DNA of 64,000 nucleotides, from assembly GCA_026874595.1 (NCBI GenBank), contig CM049317.1, positions 35,680,901 to 35,744,900 of the forward strand, written 5' to 3'. The position numbers and the translations under genes are program-made. The notes under the pieces were generated by a model. It did no database searches and had not been told where the DNA came from. It worked only from the letters and a program-made list of their open reading frames with translations. The stretch is from Sipunculus nudus (taxonomy: Eukaryota > Annelida > Sipuncula > Golfingiida > Sipunculidae). Numbering within the stretch: the first letter of the stretch is position 1; each line of letters starts with the position of its first letter. This document shows positions 1,634 through 18,426 of this stretch, one piece after another.

Positions 1634-2140
1634 GTATGAGCCAATGACATCCTCAGGAACAACCCCAAGCACGACAGATTTGGCTACCTCCGATGATGAA
1701 AGTTTTACTACTGCAGAAAAGCAAGCTATATGCAGGGTTATAGCTAGCCAAATTTAAATGGCGTTGGTCTGTCTTATAACTATTTTAAATGATATAATTT
1801 TGGCTCTCAATATATTCATTTTTGTAAACATTCTAATGAAGCAGAACTTTAATGCAGTTTTGGGTAATAAATAACCAACGTTTTATGGCTAGTAACTGTT
1901 TTTTGAAGATCTTTAAGATCTTATATGCTGGTCCGTGGGTTGCAAATTTTAGGTCTGTGCCGGTCGGCTGCAGCAGGTCCTGGCTATCCCAACGGGCGCC
2001 AACTGGCGTGGCTGTAACCCTTGTTATAAAGTTCAATTTACTTTTACCATAACATGTACGTATAATGCGTACTTGTAATATGATAACTTTGAGCAATATT
2101 CCCTTTGTGATGCATTATTATATTTGTGGTTTTTTTTCAG

Positions 2141-3587
2141 ACTTCAGGTGAAACTGCCGTTTATGACCCAGAGGGCAAAAATTAGTAAAAGAATTAGTCG
2201 TCAGGTTGCGATCCTCAATCAACAAAAAAGCAAAATGACTGCAGAGATACAAAACCTTAAGCGCACTATATGGAAGCTAAAAAAGCGGAACAGCCGTTTG
2301 AAGACCAGAGTTAAGACCAGAATTGCTCCTGTTGATGCCAAAAAGAAGACAGTTGTTCAGTCTACTCCTGTGAAGGAAGCTGACTCATTGCTCAGAAGTG
2401 AGCGGTTTTCTCCAAGAAAATGCAGGGAAGTGAGAAAGCGTCTGATTATGAGTTCCTCCCTATTGGCTCACATGTGCACAATGCAGGAGAAAGATCAGAA
2501 GAGGGCTGTAGCATCTGTGGCACGCACATTATCTGCCAGACTACTTGCACGGTCTTTAGACGTTAATCGAAAGTTGGGAAAACAACAAATTAACAAACGA
2601 AAGATTCAAGCAACTCTTAATAAAAAGGCCATCCAGGCTTTTTGTCTTGATCCTGCTAATTCCACTTGCCTCCCAGGCAAAAAAGATGTTATAAAGATAG
2701 GTGGGCAAAAGGTGCAGAAACACATTCTCAGTGACAACACTGATATTTTGCATGCTCGATTCAACTATGAGAATCCTCGAAAAAAGGTTGGGCTATCTAC
2801 TTTCAAGAAATATCGCCCAAAAAATGCACTTCCTGTCAAGCGGGTGATACGCAATGTGGCACTCTGCAAGATCCATCAAAATTTTGTGTTGCGACTGCTG
2901 CCCCTGAAATCTATTGGAGTTACCCAGTGTACAACCAAGTTCGTCACTGAATACACAAATGAAACTGCTTCAGAAAAGCTGCAGGAAATTCAGGATCGAG
3001 TGGTCAAGTTTCGGCAGTGGAGGGCCTGCACTGAGGATCTTAAAGGCAAACCAGTTAAAAGGACAGTTCTTACTGATGTTGTTGAAGAAAAAGCCCTTTT
3101 CAAACACAATTTCCTCGATTGTCTATTGTCGTTCAGAGAGCATCACGCCAGGGTGATCAATCAGTATGAAATCTTCGCTCATCTGAAAGCAAATTTACCT
3201 GTCAACGAGGCAACCGTGCAAGTTGATTTCGCCGAAAATTATGTTTGTAATTACGGAGACGAAGTTGCGGCTGCATACTTCTCAAAGGTACAGGTGACAA
3301 TCCACCCGGCAGTGTTCCATTTTAAAGGTGAGAACGGCAGGTTGGAACACAAGAGTGTTGTTGTCCTTTCGGATGAAACCTCTCACAAGGCCACAACGGT
3401 TTTCGCCTTTCTGAAGAAATTGATGGAATGGTTGAAGAGAGAGAAGCCTCGAGTGAAAGCCATCCACTACCTCTCAGATTCACCTATGTCCCAGTACAGA
3501 AACAGTACAATATTTGGAATTGTCTTCCACCATGAAGGATTATTTGGAATTTGGGCAACCTGGAACTACTTCGGAAAGGAGCATTGA
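2141..3587 (+). CDS. Main exon of DDE-like gene, ends at premature stop
   Basis: About 480 codons follow the acceptor at 2139-2140. Order: a coiled-coil Lys/Arg/Gln region (about 50 residues), a low-similarity linker with RFSPRKCREVRKRL, then conserved blocks near 3225 (VDFAENY) and 3466 (HYLSDSPMSQYRN). Asp in each block is a plausible catalytic acidic residue by analogy with DDE enzymes (inference). The TGA at 3585-3587 truncates the frame exactly where I would expect a His-Gly-Lys-Gly-type block in relatives. A third catalytic position may therefore be deleted. Confidence 0.6.
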
Positions 3588-4277
3588 TAAAATCTGCCCA
3601 AGATTTTATGCATTGGGGCACAGGTCTCGGGGACAAATCAGATGTGTTATTTCTTTTGGTTCCATCCAGCAAGGTAGAAGAAGCCACGCGGCAGCTTGAT
3701 TTGATAGCAAAATTCCCTGTCCCACACACCATGAAGACACATGCTATTGTTCCCGCACAGGGGAAACTGTTCACCAGGAAAACTTCCTGTTTCAAGGAGT
3801 GTTGTTGGTCTCTTGGCAATTTCCACCCGCAGTGCTTTGGCTGGGAGTGTCATGATCAGAATATAGAGGAGAAGTCCATAGCTGCAAGCCCAGTCCAAGA
3901 CAAGGGCGACACAAAGACATCTGAATATGACTTACAATTGACTAGCTCAACAATCCAGGAAAGTCGACGGTGAGGTGGCAAGCGATGAAAAAAAACTGGC
4001 TCCTTTCTCCGTTGGACAGTATGTGGCGGTAAGATATTCAGGTGAAATATACGTTGGGAATATTCTCGAAGCTGAAGACTATGAATACCGTATTAACTTT
4101 ATGGAAAGTGTCACCAAATCCGCTCTCAATTTCCGATGGCCGACAAGACCTGACGTATTGTGGGTAGTACCAGAAGATATCCTCGGTGTTCTTGGCTCTC
4201 CTATCCCTAAAGGCCGTTCGCAGCGGTCTTTTTTATTTTCTAATGATGACCAAGAGTTTCTGTCCAATTTATATTAA
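3588..4277 (+). pseudogene. Frameshifted 3' remainder of DDE-like gene
   Basis: Two frames carry the rest of the protein. From about 3588 to 3973 reads LIKSAQDFMHWGTGLGDKSD and a Cys/His-containing region with CFKECCW. From about 3972 to 4277, in the next frame, reads a small beta-rich domain (VGQYVAVRYSGEIYVGNI; RPDVLWVVPEDILGVL). No GT-AG intron explains either frame change, so I treat both as mutations. Confidence 0.55.
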
Positions 4278-8497: not shown

Positions 8498-9126
8498 ATG
8501 GAGCCGGTAAGAGGTACACCGTCTTTATGGGACCGTTTAGCTTCCATAACTGAAAGTGCATTGGCTGAGCAATCATCCAAACACCCTACGAAGAGTCAGA
8601 GTCAGCCAGAAGCGGAAAACATAGAGGCCCAAGAGAAATTAAGAAAATACTGGATAAACTTCGGGCAGAGCTACAAGCAAAATTAGGGAGACAATTAGGA
8701 ACCGTGGTTTCACCTGGTGCTGGCATTTCCACAGCCTCAGAGTCCGTACCTTTGACACCTGATGCCGTTGGTTCTACAGTGTCACAGTCCGTAACGGTTA
8801 CAGATGGTGCGTCAAGTTCAGCTGCATCACATTTAGTTTGGGCGAGTGTCAATACAGAAATTGTAGAAACAGCAGAGGCTGCAAGTGAATGCAGTTACAG
8901 CAGTCGGAGCCGAGGCGCATGCAGCAGAAACATCAATCATATCACACATACTCGCTTAATCAGAAATGTGTTAGTGTCCAAAGAATGGTGTATTAATTGG
9001 CTTATGGAACAAAAAATACTTGTGGACAAACATGTCTGTCCTGTATACCAAACTGCCATGCGCCTAGTAACTGTAAACAGAAGTGATTACAGCGATCGTC
9101 CGATCGACCGAGGCAACACAATTTAA
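8498..9126 (+). pseudogene. Merlin/ISXO2-type transposase N-terminal remnant
   Basis: An ATG at 8498 opens 62 codons. One frame shift near 8620-8640 joins it to a second frame that continues to 9126 (in that frame: REIKKILDKLRAELQAKLG, then a Ser/Thr/Val-rich linker). The last part reads EWCINWLMEQKILVDKHVCP followed by VYQTAM. From memory of the family, ISXO2/Merlin proteins have a WL-x-L-CPxCxxxM N-terminal zinc motif. Here the second Cys is Tyr, and the sequence stops before any DDE domain. I judge it a truncated, frameshifted relic. It could instead be a host gene exon. Confidence 0.4.
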
Positions 9127-9309: not shown

Positions 9310-9319
9310 CTTCGTCACC
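9310..9319. repeat. Left target-site duplication of the OTU element
   Basis: CTTCGTCACC, repeated directly at 13883-13892 on the other side of the 4.56 kb element. Because of one ambiguous base at the junction the true duplication is 9 or 10 bp. Confidence 0.7.
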
Positions 9320-9619
9320 GGTCCCTTGAAACACCCAAAACACCGGTGTTTTGGGTATGTATGACGAAACACCACGAAACACCTATTATCTCTTTAATTA
9401 TAAGGAAAATATTAGTACCAGTGAATGAATAGTCACCTAACTGATATATCTGTACAATTTTAGGCACTAAATCGGTAAAATAAAGTAAAACGAGAGTGTT
9501 ACGTCATACGGTCGGCATGATGACACTTGACAGCACAGAGCCGCCATATTTCATATTAATGCTACTGCCCCCTGGCGGAGCTTTTGTAAATTACTGTGAA
9601 TGGTGTTTTGGGTGATTGA
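9320..9619 (+). repeat. Left terminal inverted repeat of the OTU element
   Basis: It pairs with 13368-13882. It holds a 24-bp perfect palindrome at 9333-9356 (arms ACCCAAAACACC) that the right copy lacks, and a CTCF-like sequence at 9562-9581 on the minus strand. It is also the undisturbed empty site for the MITE that split the right copy. Confidence 0.8.
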
Positions 9620-9844
9620 ATAAAACGATAGTATTCTTTGTAATAGAAGTGAGAATACGATTCTCTATGTGTATTGTTGTATTTGCTAATATTTCCAAAC
9701 TGTCTTTATACAGTAATTTGGAGTGTCACTGTGCACTTTATCAAGACTACAGTTTTTTTTATTGTAAAATGTTCCAATCAAAAATGAACTGTTATTATTT
9801 CTAAATGAACACTTGTAAAAAATTGTAAAATATTCCTAGTCAAA

Positions 9845-10172
9845 TCAATCAATTATTTAATTTTATACTATATTAATTTTTATTATTATTGTTAAGCATC
9901 AGTTATTTATTATTTTAAGCATTGATTATTTAATATTATTTCTACATGAAGTTTCTATTGACACATTTGCCGTTATAATTTTTGTTCATAATTATAAAAA
10001 AATTAATCAATCAATTGTTAAATTTAATCCTATATTTATTTTAATTATTATTGTTAAGCATCAGTTATTTATTATTTTAAGCATTGATTAATCATTTATT
10101 ATTATTTCTACATGAAGTTTCTATTGACACATTTGCCGTTATAATTTTGGTTCATAATTATAAAACATTAAA
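9845..10172. repeat. 162-bp tandem duplication
   Basis: Two adjacent copies share AAGCATCAGTTATTTATT and CATGAAGTTTCTATTGACAC. Equivalent positions are about 162 bp apart (GTTAAGCATC at 9891 and 10053). AT-rich and non-coding, upstream of the PHD-OTU gene. Confidence 0.8.
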
Positions 10173-10767
10173 TCAAACCAGGCACAAAAAACCTACATAC
10201 CTTTCATTTATGTGTTCATCAAGAGTCGTAGATAAGGAATGAGACTGCTCAGTAAACAGTTGTTGCGCATCAGTTGACACTCAGAACGATATTACAGTTT
10301 GACAGTAATCAAGATGTCAAGTGAACTCACAACAATCTCACAGTTTGTCAGTATTCAAGATGATATATTCAGCCGTTCAATCAAACATGACTAAACTGGT
10401 CACAGATGACCACAGATGACCCTAAGTTAATTAGCGCTTCAGTTGGTTTGGCAGATGAGCGATAACTTCTTAATTAATTACCCCTTTGAGTTACTAGATC
10501 AAAGACTAGTTATTGCATCAGTCGTTTGGGGTTGAGTAATCACGCATGACCGGAGGTGTGAAGATGTTTGGATTATATCATACTTGAACTCACAATTATT
10601 CATTATCGGTTTTAATTACAGGTGGAAAGTTTGTGATTTATCATAGTTTGTTTGTCTGTCATGCATGCGTGGCTGAACTTCAAACGAATGTCTACCCTAT
10701 AAACATGTGAGGATTAACATAACTGTTCATTCCATATGTGAATACGCATGTTGTAACAAAGCAAGTT

Positions 10768-12081
10768 ATGCAGTTCAGCAGAAGAAAACGCGCTCGTCAT
10801 GTCAAGTGGCCCTGTGGATCTTGTGGTGGTGAATGCCAAGAAGAGACCGTGTTCTGTGAGCAGTGCTCCTATTGGTATCACAGAGAATGTGAAGACTTAG
10901 CAGAGACTTCCTTCACCACTTTATCAGGAGAGTCGGCACCGTATTATTGTCGTCACTGTACGCACAATGCAGACGGCCGCTTCAAATTCCCTCGTGCCAT
11001 TTCACGCCTGCATGGAGCATCCAGGAAGAACTTGTACCAGCTCACCAGTCACGCCATTGTGGAAGGAATCCTTATACGGAACAAATTTCTCGCCGGACTA
11101 AGGAGACCACTAGATGTAGCTCTCGAGACTGATTACGAAGCCAAGGCCATCGTTGATAAATGCCGCCTGAATGACCTTCCAGGAGAGCCGATTGCTGTGT
11201 CCGGAGACGGGAACTGCCTCTTTAATGCAGTATCCGGTTATCTTACTGGTGACGAGACTCTGGCTACAGATCTGCGAGTAAGATGTGCTGCAGAGATGGC
11301 CAGACACAGGGATGTCATTGAGAATATGCCAAACGCAAGTGACATTGCAAGTGTTTCGCCGAATTATGACGTGGCATTTAGAGACTGCTGTACTGAGGGT
11401 GGATACTCATCAGCCTGGACCATCCAAGCACTTGCCAACGTCACCAGGACACCCATCAGAGCAATCTTCCCGCCCATGAACGGGCTTAATGACATCGTTC
11501 GCAAGATTCTCACAGCAAGATACGTACCGGTGCACTCTCCTAGTGAAGCAACATCAGAAATCACCATAATGTGGTCCAGACTTGGTCCCATCACAGGAAA
11601 ATGGTGGTCAGCAAATCACTTCGTTCCAGTTATGGAGAAGACATGGTCATCATACGGATCTGATATTCCTGATGTCTCCCCATTTCGACCAGCGGATTAT
11701 GATTTAGAGTTCCCGCTGTTTGATTTGCCGTGCGATCATTCGACCCCTAAGAAAGGACCTGAGGCGACACAGGACCTGATTGAGAGTTTATACCCAGAGG
11801 TCAAGCTTCAGATGTTAAGCTTGCGGCGTTGCCTTCACGGATTTGGTGAATACGTACTATGTCCACAGCACAAGCGATTTTTCAAGCCGGACAGTGTCTG
11901 GCGTCAGCTCTCTGATGATGCTAAAGAGGAACATTTCTGCAAGTTTCTTCGCACAGCCATAGACCAACCGACAGATGGAAAATACATCAGAGCAACGCAA
12001 TTGGAATTTGCGATCCCAAAGGAACCTGCAGTAGCCAGCGTCGCCGTGGACGTAGTGAGCGCACCACAACTTGTTGAATGA
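10768..12081 (+). CDS. PHD-finger and OTU-domain protein (transposon-borne)
   Basis: A single uninterrupted exon of 437 codons. I start at ATG 10768; the frame is open a little further upstream without an ATG. Residues about 16-70 form a PHD-type zinc finger: CGSC, CEQC, YWYHREC and YYCRHC give the Cys4-His-Cys3 order, expected to bind a histone tail or DNA-bound partner. Residues about 140-290 form an OTU cysteine-protease domain with GDGNCLFNAVSG (Asp147, Cys150 nucleophile) and WWSANHFVPV (His284). OTU enzymes remove ubiquitin or related modifiers. The C-terminal third (CLHGFGEYVLCPQHKRFF) is not recognised; a vertnin-like relation is possible but unproven. AATAAA lies at 12121. The gene occupies the centre of the long-TIR element, with both catalytic motifs intact and no stop or shift. 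Confidence 0.85.
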   Translation: MQFSRRKRARHVKWPCGSCGGECQEETVFCEQCSYWYHRECEDLAETSFTTLSGESAPYYCRHCTHNADGRFKFPRAISRLHGASRKNLYQLTSHAIVEGILIRNKFLAGLRRPLDVALETDYEAKAIVDKCRLNDLPGEPIAVSGDGNCLFNAVSGYLTGDETLATDLRVRCAAEMARHRDVIENMPNASDIASVSPNYDVAFRDCCTEGGYSSAWTIQALANVTRTPIRAIFPPMNGLNDIVRKILTARYVPVHSPSEATSEITIMWSRLGPITGKWWSANHFVPVMEKTWSSYGSDIPDVSPFRPADYDLEFPLFDLPCDHSTPKKGPEATQDLIESLYPEVKLQMLSLRRCLHGFGEYVLCPQHKRFFKPDSVWRQLSDDAKEEHFCKFLRTAIDQPTDGKYIRATQLEFAIPKEPAVASVAVDVVSAPQLVE

Positions 12082-12120
12082 TTACGGACTTGGAGTTTGT
12101 TTGTAAATAATGTTTATTAA

Positions 12121-12126
12121 AATAAA
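12121..12126 (+). terminator. Poly(A) signal of the PHD-OTU gene
   Basis: AATAAA 40 bases after the TGA stop, followed by T/G-rich sequence. More AATAAA copies follow downstream (for example near 12191). Confidence 0.6.
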
Positions 12127-12860
12127 ATGTTGAAATATGTACGCTTGTTTGTTTTCATATTGTAAATAATAGCCTTCATGTATTTTATGATAATAAAGAA
12201 CTTTCACAAGCAAGAAAATCGTTTTATTATTTTTTTAATGAGCATCAGTATTTATATGTATACAGAAAAATATCCATGCATTTTATATTTTTATTAGCTG
12301 GTATAAAACAATAAATGATCAATACATAAATGTTTTTTATTTTATTTTTTAAATTGTTCTATTAAAATGCTATATAAATAATCATGTAAATAATAAAATA
12401 ATAAATAATCAATACTTCCTTTTTTTAATTTTCTAAATTCTTCTATTAAGATGCTATTCACATTTTATTTATTCTGTAACAAATATCAATGCATAAAGAT
12501 CTTGTTTTTAATTTTTAAAATGGTACAATAAAAAGCTATTCAAATTTTTAAAATTCTGTAACAACTAACTATTAAAACATAAAAAAGTTATTTTTTTTCT
12601 AATTTTACACGTTCTTAAACAAAATGATAAACAACCCTTGATATATTTTTGTAAAGTCTGTTGTTATTTGTAATATTGTAAAATGTAATCTGTTCATATT
12701 GTAAACAAAATGAAAAGCAACACTTGTAATAATTTTGTAAATACAATTGTTACTTGTATAATTACAAGATTGTATGATGTACTCTGTTCAATAAAAGTTA
12801 TAATTAATATCAGACGACTCCTATAAAAAGGAATAGGTCTTGCATCATAACCTTCCATTA

Positions 12861-13364
12861 TGCTACGGTCACAATGTGAAACTGCCGCCTGCCGATTTTT
12901 AGACATCGGCGGATTCTTAAAGTTATATGCCGCCGGCCGATTTTTTGCAAATCGGTGCGAGTGGTTATAAATAACTGCCAGTAAAAGGCCGCCTGACGGG
13001 CTCCGGGCAGCCCAAGGCAGTGTCTAAGTTCGAGGGGGTGTGTTACGTCATCAGGGTGTTGGCCGGTGGCAGTTAGGCGACCGAATAAAAATCGCGCTGC
13101 TGCCCGCCTGCCGCTTGATAACCACCGCGCGACTTCAAAAAGCGCCCAGCCGGTGACCTGACGACTGGCATAATTGGAAAAATCGGCCGGTGGCAGACAG
13201 AATTTTAACTTTTTCTTAAAATTTCAGCGGCGTCCTAGCGGCGTCTAAAATGCCGACTGCCGCCTGCCGATTGTGCCTGCCACCGAGCTGCCACCTGAAG
13301 AATTTTAGTGAAAACTGGCAGTTACCACGCCGGCAGGCGGCTTTAGTGATTTGTGACTGTAGCA
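12861..13364. mobile_element. GC-rich MITE, PIF/Harbinger-like, TTA duplication
   Basis: The ends match as inverted repeats: TGCTACGGTCACAA on the left, and the complement of TTGTGACTGTAGCA on the right, with GCCGCCTGCCG further in on both sides. TTA flanks both ends (12858-12860 and 13365-13367), the 3-bp duplication typical of PIF/Harbinger. Inside, GCCGCCTGCCGA and its complement recur, making it far more GC-rich than its surroundings. It encodes no protein. It inserted at the inner edge of the right TIR of the OTU element. Confidence 0.7.
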
Positions 13365-13367
13365 TTA

Positions 13368-13882
13368 ATCACCCAAAACACGATTCACAGTAATTTACAA
13401 AAGCTCCGCCAGGGGGCAGTAGCATTAATATGAAATATGGCGGCTCTGTGCTGTCAAGTGTCATCATGCCGACCGTATGACGAAACACTCAAACTTACTT
13501 TATTTTACCGATTTAGTGCCTAAAATTGTACAGATATATCAGTTAGGTGACTATTCATTCACTGGTACTAATATTTTCGGCCCGAGTATAGAATCCAGTC
13601 ATCATTTCCAAGATGGGTCTAAACTGGCTTGACCGTCTCATATTAGTAGTAATCAACATACGCCATGACATGCCTGATGATATGACATCGACATGCCTCT
13701 TTCTTCTTCCATTATATGAATCCTATCCATCATTACGTCCGTATGTATACACCCATAACCTCGTTCATGTAGACCGGATTCTATACTCGCTCCATATTTT
13801 CCTTATAATTAAAGAGATAATAGGTGTTTCGTGGTGTTTCGTCATTTTGTGTTTTGGGTGTTTTGGGTGTTTCGAGGGACCC
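13368..13882 (-). repeat. Right terminal inverted repeat of the OTU element (split)
   Basis: Complement of 9320-9619, interrupted by a 215-bp MITE with its 8-bp duplication (13571-13801). It holds a CTCF-like sequence at 13403-13422. The outermost bases read GGTGTTTCGAGGGACC. Confidence 0.8.
13579..13793. mobile_element. 215-bp MITE with 8-bp duplication, nested in the TIR
   Basis: The terminal inverted repeat is GGCCCGAGTATAGAATCC at the left and the complement of GGATTCTATACTCGCTCC at the right (two mismatches). ATATTTTC flanks both sides (13571-13578 and 13794-13801). The left TIR of the host element shows the uninterrupted site, which proves the insertion. An 8-bp duplication fits hAT, P or Merlin-type enzymes; the termini do not look like a standard hAT end, so the class is open. 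Confidence 0.8.
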
Positions 13883-13892
13883 CTTCGTCACC
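13883..13892. repeat. Right target-site duplication of the OTU element
   Basis: CTTCGTCACC, identical to 9310-9319. On this side the flank also contains the complement GGTGACGAA about 12 bases on, forming a small hairpin. Confidence 0.7.
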
Positions 13893-14670
13893 ATTTTCCT
13901 GTGGTGACGAAACGACTGCATTTACTATCCGGCCCGAGCGATAATATAGCACACTGACGTATTCGATAAAGAGTCCCCATAGATTGGGTGACAGCGTGTA
14001 TGACGATGGTCATCAATATGTAAACCACTTATCTGCTTGGCTATGCTTGTTTTCTGGTGTATTTCAAGCTGTGTTCCTTGGATTTGCTCACTCTGGCTCG
14101 TCATCTTTGCATGAAGCTCACGAGTCGGCAGGAGTTTGTTGGTATATAAAATGCGTGCACGCATGCTTTTTCACGTGTGCGCATACGTTGGATAGATTCA
14201 TTAATTTTGGGCTAGACCGAATTATTCTGCAGCCATTTTTGGTAATGTTCAACACACTGTCCATTTAAAAATACATGTATATCTGCCCTGTTTCCGGCAC
14301 ATTTCTGATATTTTCATAGATCCTAGGACATCCACTGCTTAATTCAACCCAGAAATACAAATCATGTCTGAATGGTTTTCGCGTTATTAACTTGTTTCCA
14401 TTGGAAGCTCCAGATGGCACCACTGCGCTGAACAATTCATAAAATTTTAACATCATTTACTGGCTGTTTCACCGTTGCGTTTATAATCGCAAAAAAATCT
14501 CCAGCCATACTCAAGGCACGCCGCTGCGTCAGTGTAACCTTAATTTGACTGCGCACACGGTCAGGTTTTCGGTCCGCTAGAATCCAATGTGCAATCATTT
14601 GCACTTTAGGACGTTAAACAAGTCGAGAAAACTGCAAATTTATTTGGTACCACTATAACAAAAAAATTAT
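13893..14670. other. Intergenic; no gene seen
   Basis: Unique-looking AT-moderate sequence with no coding frame that I can defend. Confidence 0.4.
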
Positions 14671-16754: not shown

Positions 16755-17420
16755 ACATGCACAAAATTATTTTTTATCTCGTTCCCACGCGATAGTATCT
16801 CGTTCCCACGCGATAATTATCTCGTTCCCACGCGTTAGTATCGCGTGGCTACGCGTTAGTATGCCATGCTATAGCTTAAGCCCTCATTTAGACAAGAATG
16901 TCTGTGGTCTGTTTTATATCGAGCGTCGATGCAGCTTAAATTGTTTTTATGTATTTCCTTGTATGTTTGTTTGCGCCGAATGCTTTGAGGTAAATTTCAA
17001 CAGTTTTCATTGCGTTTGTTCACCATTTTATTGCGTTGGTTCAACTAGCCCATTTTTATTTGTTCCTGGAAAACTGTATTGAGTTTGTTTTAGGGTAAGG
17101 GTGATATAAACCCTTGTGTACCAAACATGGATTAAACTGAAACACTTGTTTGTATTTTACCTTCCCAGAAAATCTTATTTTTTAGTACTATAGGGTTGGG
17201 TTATTAAATTTCGGGTATACCGAACAGGGTAAACAACATGTCGGTTTGTGTTATGTCTCAAGGTAGAAGCTTACAACAAAAGGTCTCAGCCATGCCACTT
17301 CATTATGACTGGGGGAGGGGTTAAGGAGACCTTTTTACGAGAAATTTGCTCATTTTTTCCCTTCACATTTTTCTTTCTACAATATAAATTCAGTTATGGA
17401 TTCATAAGCGGCGAAACCGT

Positions 17421-17444
17421 GGGGGGGGGGGGGGGGGGGGGGGG
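17421..17444 (+). repeat. Poly-G run
   Basis: About 24 consecutive G; could form G-quadruplex-like structure and is a likely site of assembly or length error. Confidence 0.9.
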
Positions 17445-17600
17445 TTAGCTTCATTCTAATCACATTCACCTGATGATCGGGTCGCATCCCGTGAAACAGA
17501 CTGTTGTGAATTAACTGTGTTGTTTTTCTCCAGAGTTATACCGCTCTGGCCTAGTCTGTAGGCCATAGAGCACTTTACATCGGAGGGTAACACTACCTTC

Positions 17601-17601
<1 letters not shown>

Positions 17602-17674
<73 letters not shown>

Positions 17675-17930
17675 AATAATAATATATATAATATATATGT
17701 ATATATTATATATACATAATATATATCCTAGTATATATATAAAATATGTATCATATATATACATACACACATATATATATATTCTATTTGGGTATACTAT
17801 ATATATGTATACTATATATATAATATATATGTATATATAATATATATAATATATATATATACTAGTATACATATAATATATATATTATATATACATACAC
17901 ACACATATATATATATAATTTATATTGTGA
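17602..17930. repeat. TA-rich microsatellite
   Basis: A long, imperfect (TA)n tract with interspersed TGTATA and CACACA. Open frames across it (Tyr/Ile repeats on the minus strand) are artefacts. Confidence 0.95.
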
Positions 17931-18175
17931 ACATTTTTTATGAAAAATATTTTACCCGAACTAGCCCCCCCCCCCACCTTTCCCCGCTCACACATTCTCC
18001 AGACAAACATAGCCCACGAGTGTTCTACGAGTGCCCGTTGTATCATTTCACGTCTCAGCATATTAAGTCCGCTCAAAAATTATGCAAATAATTGACCATA
18101 GTCTTCATCCAGTGTAAACAAGCATGCCTCAAGGATTTAAGATGTAGGTCTTACTGTATTATCTATCTACATTTA

Positions 18176-18405
18176 TCTCGTTCACACGCGATAATTATCG
18201 CGTGGCCACGCGATAGTATCGCGTGGGAACGAGATAATTATCGCGTGGCCACGAGATACAAACGCGTGGGAACGAGATACTAACGAGTGGGAACGAGATA
18301 ATTATCGCGTGGCCACGAGATACAAACGCGTGGGAACGAGATAATTATCGCGTGGCCACGAGATACTAACGCGTGGGAACGAGATACTATCGCGTGGGAA
18401 CGAGA
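18176..18405. repeat. Tandem CGCGTGG-ACGAGATA units
   Basis: Consecutive 18-20 bp units alternate TATCGCGTGGGAACGAGATA and ATTATCGCGTGGCCACGAGA. The CpG-rich palindromic core contrasts with the AT-rich surroundings. Confidence 0.85.
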
Positions 18406-18426
18406 TAAAAATAATTTTGTGCATGT

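Follow-up and report, generated by a model that had tools for sequence, protein, structure and literature searches.

A 64,000-nucleotide stretch of the genome of Sipunculus nudus (contig CM049317.1, forward-strand positions 35,680,901 to 35,744,900; hereafter the window, with positions counted from its first letter) contains a transposon insertion at 9320–13881, delimited by comparison of its inverted repeats and flanks. The insertion is very probably an internally deleted, non-autonomous Mutator-like element (MULE) whose full-length relatives encode one protein that combines a PHD finger, an OTU cysteine-protease domain and a DDE transposase. In its only sizeable gene, an open reading frame (ORF) of 437 codons, PHD and OTU are fused to the C-terminal tail of the transposase, almost certainly because the DDE core was lost and the reading frame happened to be kept. 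Taken alone, the window copy is an ordinary defective element.

An Open Reading Frame That Ends in a Transposase Tail

The ORF begins with the ATG at 10768 and ends with the stop codon at 12079–12081. Its features, with the evidence for each in brackets, are:

10768..12081, + strand: 437-codon ORF with PHD, OTU and MULE transposase C-terminal tail, product of an in-frame deletion (ORF, Pfam, alignment to relatives)
10813..10959, + strand: PHD finger; best solved relatives are Pygopus PHD fingers; aromatic residues W14 and W36 (Pfam, structure-database match)
11173..11652, + strand: OTU cysteine-protease domain with Asp147, Cys150 and His284 (Pfam, residue check)
11772..11773, + strand: deletion junction, at which the copy L010 has 1584 nt (528 codons) more; 1-bp microhomology (alignment to L010)
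11773..12081, + strand: transposase C-terminal tail, residues 336–437; a 13-bp deletion after 12033 shifts the last residues (alignment)

The PHD finger (PF00628) scores 26.1 bits against a cut-off of 24 and the OTU domain (PF02338) 28.1 bits against 23.3, and the three residues required of an OTU cysteine protease are in place. The uninterrupted PHD-OTU gene of the preliminary description is thereby confirmed, as is its association with a transposon. It is not, however, the stand-alone gene that had been proposed. Codons 1–337 align with residues 1–337 of the relative L012 (65% identity) and the tail with residues 896–983 (65%), while the middle of L012 is unmatched. The nearest relative found is L010, with 96% DNA identity over 2.1 kb, and the whole of the missing sequence is absent at a single point, 11772, where the joined ends have one base in common. 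A DNA search across this junction gave seven matches (seven of seven candidates scored), and the window alone spans it; likewise, among the 95 protein matches listed, PHD, OTU and tail are contiguous only in the window.

Pfam found no transposase domain in any of the six frames of the element, only PHD, OTU and look-alikes, in keeping with the earlier impression of a MULE-like element without a transposase. The copy lacks the DDE core and is thus not an autonomous MULE. A transposase remnant within the window element was considered as a candidate and ruled out by the six-frame Pfam scan.

Among solved structures, the PHD finger is closest to that of Pygopus (E-value 4.5e-7), followed by those of MLL1, RAG2, DIDO1 and CXXC1. 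In the alignment W36 corresponds to Pygopus W366, W14 to Y341 and E31 to E360 (Pygopus numbering anchored on the EVND motif); Y341 and W366 are named as residues of the pocket for methylated lysine 4 in the available portion of PMC2726290. Because its best solved relatives are of the Pygopus type and W36 and W14 align with pocket residues, the PHD finger may read methylation of histone H3 lysine 4 (H3K4).

The Full-Length Protein of the Family

A search for an autonomous relative with a DDE transposase, suggested in the preliminary description, identified L012 (C9:75526514–75529534), in which PHD, OTU and DDE lie in one uninterrupted frame of 1007 aa (1000 aa from the first Met). It is the sole stop-free match over the whole query among the 57 matches listed (45 of 338 candidates scored). 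PF00628 and PF02338 exceed their cut-offs in L012, and the MULE transposase family PF10551 reaches 23.7 bits, under the cut-off of 27.6. The same transposase part is present in L009 and L011, where PF10551 scores 30.1 and 30.6 bits; no PF10551 match was reported for L027. The L012-type transposase part carries GID, GSDEEK, C..H and NNNSES motifs, which we take to be those expected of a MULE DDE core.

A residue census over the window and 23 fetched loci with matches showed the first Asp of the DDE triad in 10 of 11 covering rows, the second in 11 of 11 and the Glu in 17 of 18. The OTU Cys is kept in all eight rows that cover it and the His in all seven, and the Asp is kept in seven of nine. 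In a protein search of the genome (96 of 141 candidates scored), the OTU-side part and the tail lie 1–2 kb apart on one strand, the full-length layout, at 16 distinct loci among the 95 matches listed (17 rows, two of them at one locus; 24 of the 37 tail rows pair with an OTU side at all). From these alignments, the predicted product of full-length copies is one fused protein of ∼1000 aa with PHD, OTU and MULE-type DDE transposase.

OTU also stands beside a MULE-type transposase at L038 (C7:49850800–49855800, ∼54% identity), where Cys and His are kept and Asp is replaced by Asn, and at L039 (C17:26668600–26673400, 32% identity), again with Cys and His kept. At C6:58345622–58347613 an uninterrupted frame of 903 aa is 35% identical to the transposase part, and ∼1.6 kb upstream of it lies a PHD-like match.

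Boundaries of the Element and Copies across the Genome

The features that delimit the element or lie outside its ORF are:

9310..9318, no strand: target-site duplication, left copy CTTCGTCAC; the tenth base, C, matches too (flank comparison)
9320..9617, + strand: left terminal inverted repeat (TIR) (self-comparison; at least 43 matches in its own genome)
9842..10176, no strand: 5′ non-coding tandem duplication of 166 bp (shared with L010 and L011)
12861..13364, no strand: nested 504-bp element n2, ends TGCTACRGTCACAA, with TTA at both sides (not in L010)
13367..13881, − strand: right TIR, split by n1 (self-comparison)
13579..13793, no strand: nested 215-bp element n1 inside the right TIR, with ATATTTTC at both sides (not in L010)
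13883..13891, no strand: target-site duplication, right copy (flank comparison)

Inverted repeats of about 290 bp had been reported and prove to be ∼298 bp long, in four paired blocks (9320–9344/13857–13881, 9361–9412/13794–13845, 9405–9488/13495–13578 and 9494–9617/13367–13490) that are 96%–100% complementary. Over the aligned arms 274 of 277 bases are identical, excluding gaps (n1 and two short unalignable stretches). The matching termini, GGTCCCT[T/C]GAAACACC, are confirmed. So is the direct flank of 9–10 bp: CTTCGTCACC stands at 9310–9319 and 13883–13892 and nowhere else in the window, although the right flank belongs to a short inverted repeat, TTCGTCACC...GGTGACGAA, at 13884–13911. Nine or more common flanking bases (within ±2) were found at 93 of 200,000 random position pairs. 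One additional C precedes the right copy. Other copies with a target duplication mostly have 8–9 bp and an additional base adjoining the TIR, so 9 bp is the best reading for the window. The nested element n2 adjoins the inner edge of the right TIR. Near position 7515 of L026, sequence resembling the right end of n1 adjoins the TIR of that copy; insertion of this small element into the family's TIRs may therefore have happened two or more times.

The 1.43 Gb assembly (153 contigs) was searched with the left TIR; 40 of 540 candidates were scored, and the count of matches is thus a lower bound. Of 29 stretches fetched around TIR matches other than the window, 23 contain parts of the same protein (tblastn); none were detected in L021, L024 and L025 at E ≤ 1e-3 or in L032, L036 and L037 at E ≤ 1e-5. 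TIR copies elsewhere do enclose the gene: in L010 and L012, for example, PHD-OTU sequence lies between two TIRs. Fourteen TIR pairs, the window included, were examined for target duplications with shifts of ±3 bp. Exact duplications of 8–10 bp were found in eight (window, L009, L012, L013, L014, L015, L017 and L023), a C-rich one of 12 bp in L025 and one of 11 bp with one mismatch in L022; L010, L016, L018 and L026 showed none.

The family thus has the attributes of a MULE: target duplications of ∼8–11 bp, long TIRs (298 bp in the window, 286–301 bp in pairs such as L010, L012 and L013) and, through L009 and L011, a PF10551 transposase. It does not have the Gypsy-type integrase of Ginger1 elements; L012 weakly matches PF10551 and PF00872, and no integrase family at E ≤ 1. 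A genome-wide scan gave at least 131 PF10551 matches (150 of 252 candidates scored), of which about forty are 607-aa frames of another MULE family and seven, among the matches listed, coincide with match sites of the L012 protein. The corresponding PF02338 scan gave 52 matches (105 of 105 candidates scored); among those listed, the window and C1:64855272 fall at protein sites of the family. The PHD-OTU-DDE family is therefore a minority of the PF10551 and PF02338 matches in this genome. OTU domains also occur within frames of ∼2230–2250 aa at several loci (e.g., C8:80138213, C3:43367663 and C4:36176029), perhaps of Helitron-like elements. No relatives were found in viral contigs or phages, nor the TIR string in viral contigs; in prokaryote genome contigs there were 15 pattern matches, of which none was confirmed.

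Deleted Copies and Selection

Copies of the family differ in what they have lost. L009, which has both TIRs and an 8-bp duplication, and L011 share a 524-aa open frame without OTU; the same deletion removes the last two zinc ligands of the PHD finger, which is thereby cut. The two are 99.4% identical over 6907 bp, and their flanks differ, since the match begins at the left TIR. L011 has no right TIR in the stretch read, and its right side is rearranged. Different parts of OTU are absent from L010 and L041. The gaps vary from copy to copy across the family, which indicates random deletions; their scatter would fit abortive gap repair.

Selection was assessed from non-synonymous (dN) and synonymous (dS) divergence by the NG86 method, with w as their ratio. 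Between the window and L012, w is 0.09 for PHD, 0.12 for the linker, 0.07 for OTU and 0.25 for residues 296–335. The dN of OTU (0.155) resembles that of PHD (0.151) and that of the transposase part (0.143, L011 versus L012, 449 codons), which points to similarly tight constraint on OTU and transposase in the history of the family. This match in dN, and the persistence of Cys and His at 32% identity, suggest that OTU probably has a function within the transposase protein.

Several observations weigh against the overall interpretation of the window copy and its family. Among the copies observed of the window's own subfamily (TIRs 96%–97% alike), none has OTU and DDE both complete, and the intact frame of L012 is only ∼65% identical to the window in protein and ∼80% in the TIR. 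The w values are rough, since synonymous sites have reached saturation between subfamilies (dS 1.6–2.8). No constraint is evident in young pairs, with 2 synonymous and 9 non-synonymous changes between L012 and L027 and 3 and 7 between L011 and L009; such a lack of constraint is usual for transposon copies after insertion. Finally, OTU may not be needed in cis, because a version that lacks it and has a cut PHD occurs at two places, L009 and L011.

Alternative Explanations

The preliminary description had suggested that PHD-OTU might be a captured host gene, which would make the element an animal Pack-MULE that took up a cellular gene. The lack of a transposase domain in the window copy and the known capacity of MULEs for gene capture (according to the excerpted text of PMC6446971) would agree with this. 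Against it, the same PHD-OTU stretch forms the N-terminus of the transposase polypeptide in related copies, more distant loci (∼30%–50% identity) keep the OTU side and the tail at full-length spacing, and the window ORF itself terminates in the transposase tail. PHD-OTU therefore belongs to the family's transposase gene rather than being a captured host fragment, and we regard capture as extremely improbable.

The truncated PHD-OTU-tail protein could instead be a functional trans-acting regulator, maintained because it modulates the full transposase. KP deletion derivatives of the P element, which act as repressors, provide a parallel. The frame is open over 437 codons with the key residues of PHD and OTU kept, and the chance of such an open frame at the composition of the ORF is 3e-10, although most of its length is inherited. 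However, one in three deletions preserves the frame by chance, the C-terminus has been altered by the 13-bp deletion, and no other copy has the junction. Of the changes assigned to the window branch since its separation from L010, 10 are non-synonymous and 3 synonymous (a further 4 could not be assigned to a branch), for which P is 0.58 under neutrality and 1.6e-4 under w = 0.1; some of these may precede the deletion, and synonymous sites of the outgroup are saturated. Over all 24 differences between the window and L010, 15 are non-synonymous (P 0.07 under neutrality). Given a junction found in the window only and changes that fit neutrality, nothing suggests selection on the truncated gene, and a maintained regulator seems very unlikely. 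It is still less probable, in our judgment highly so, that PHD-OTU elements and the OTU-less transposase elements L009 and L011 are cooperating halves of a two-component system. In its favour, the window's subfamily does include both kinds, each with an open frame (437 aa, and 524 aa at two loci), and L009 and L011 are nearly identical between different left flanks. Yet only one instance of the PHD-OTU half was found, with changes that fit neutrality, many other gaps of different extent exist among the copies, the deletion in L009 and L011 also takes two PHD zinc ligands, and L011 lacks a right TIR in the stretch read.

A Possible Role for PHD and OTU in Transposition

If the window copy is an internally deleted member of a PHD-OTU-DDE family, the following course of events can be envisaged. 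The parent protein would bind the TIRs and cut the DNA. Its PHD finger would read H3K4 methylation and dock on chromatin so marked, perhaps as a Pygopus-like tether for the transposase. The OTU domain, probably a deubiquitinase, would take ubiquitin off the transposase, chromatin or repair proteins, and thus stabilise the transposase or ease insertion. The internal deletion of 1584 nt took the whole DDE core yet kept the frame, and for its own movement the window copy would depend on transposase provided in trans by another copy. A broader proposal is that this MULE lineage built deubiquitination and histone reading into its transposase, with PHD acting on H3K4-methylated chromatin and OTU protecting the transposase or defeating silencing, and that in-frame derivatives such as the window copy release a free PHD-OTU protein able to act in trans on full transposases; as a whole this is speculative and rather unlikely.

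Other Features of the Window

The non-coding parts of the element contain the 8-mer GCATCAGT five times (9896, 10058, 10267, 10515 and 12242), where shuffles predict 0.03 copies; it is a candidate binding site. In the stretches searched, L010 has five copies and L011 four; L012 has none. Since the 8-mer was chosen from thousands and two of its copies lie in one tandem duplication, its enrichment, considered as a sign of VANC-like target motifs, is left as an observation.

Outside the element, plus-strand frames at 759–1022, 2079–3584, 3536–3970 and 3942–4274 may together form a single gene, either broken or with several exons; they contain the motifs DFAENY and SDSPMSQYRN and resemble a gene derived from a DDE-type transposase. 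Pfam gave nothing over cut-off for 2079–3584 and 3536–3970; for the first and last frames the scan was by NCBIfam alone. An open frame just left of the element (8569–9123) ends in a zinc-ribbon-like C..C stretch, which we take to resemble ISXO2/Merlin transposases; Pfam found nothing in it. At 16764–18418 a TATCTCGTTCCCACGCGATA-type sequence is repeated in inverted arrays. NCBIfam matches were all far under their cut-offs, and tRNA and Rfam scans of the window gave no matches.

Relation to Known Systems

The published systems are compared here as they appear in excerpts of the cited sources. Among the nearest, together with Ginger1, is the Hydra MULE group MuDR-6_HM, for which Table 1 of PMC6446971 gives "Ovarian Tumour Gene" as an additional motif; the table entry has no zinc finger and no TIRs, whereas the present family has both PHD and TIRs. 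The same source lists TIRs of 48 and 296 bp for the molluscan MULE-Cg, the latter near the 298 bp found here, and its entry includes neither OTU nor PHD; both comparisons are by description only. Ginger1 likewise fuses OTU or Ulp1 (once Ulp1 with PHD) to a DDE transposase, but that transposase is of the Gypsy-integrase type and the protease is C-terminal, in contrast to the MULE-type transposase and N-terminal PHD-OTU of this family (PMC2836005). A role in post-transposition repair was proposed there for such domains.

The KAONASHI/KIU VANDAL elements of Arabidopsis are also MULEs with a ubiquitin-like-protease domain, but Ulp1 lies in a gene apart from the transposase and the elements are non-TIR and from plants (PMC13317346, PMC2528002); KIU/VANC proteins counter silencing (PMC13317346, PMC2528002, PMC5735166). 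OTU/VTD Helitrons encode deubiquitinase-type domains as well, in rolling-circle elements unlike the MULE family described here; the three VTD domains assayed were active, transposon OTUs were not assayed there, and protection from the proteasome was suggested (PMC9741609). Vertnin, considered as a possible host relative, is an inactive OTU relative (PMC10318531), and the Pygopus PHD is the best solved relative of the family's PHD finger, with aligned pocket aromatics (PMC2726290). No PHD-OTU-MULE fusion was found among the matches listed in the literature searched for OTU- or PHD-bearing MULEs, and an earlier description in Repbase is possible. The fusion of PHD, OTU and DDE thus appears to be a new domain arrangement, an OTU-bearing MULE being already known from Hydra.

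Unrelated transposons (Ginger, Helitrons and plant MULEs) repeatedly carry proteases that belong to the ubiquitin and SUMO pathways. Here a single genome holds both a fused PHD-OTU-DDE transposase and a natural deletion series, comprising a copy with OTU but no DDE (window), copies that have DDE, no OTU and a cut PHD (L009 and L011), and copies with partial OTUs (L010 and L041). The family is of more interest than the window copy, and with OTU conserved as strongly as the transposase part it could be used to test what an OTU domain does for a transposon.

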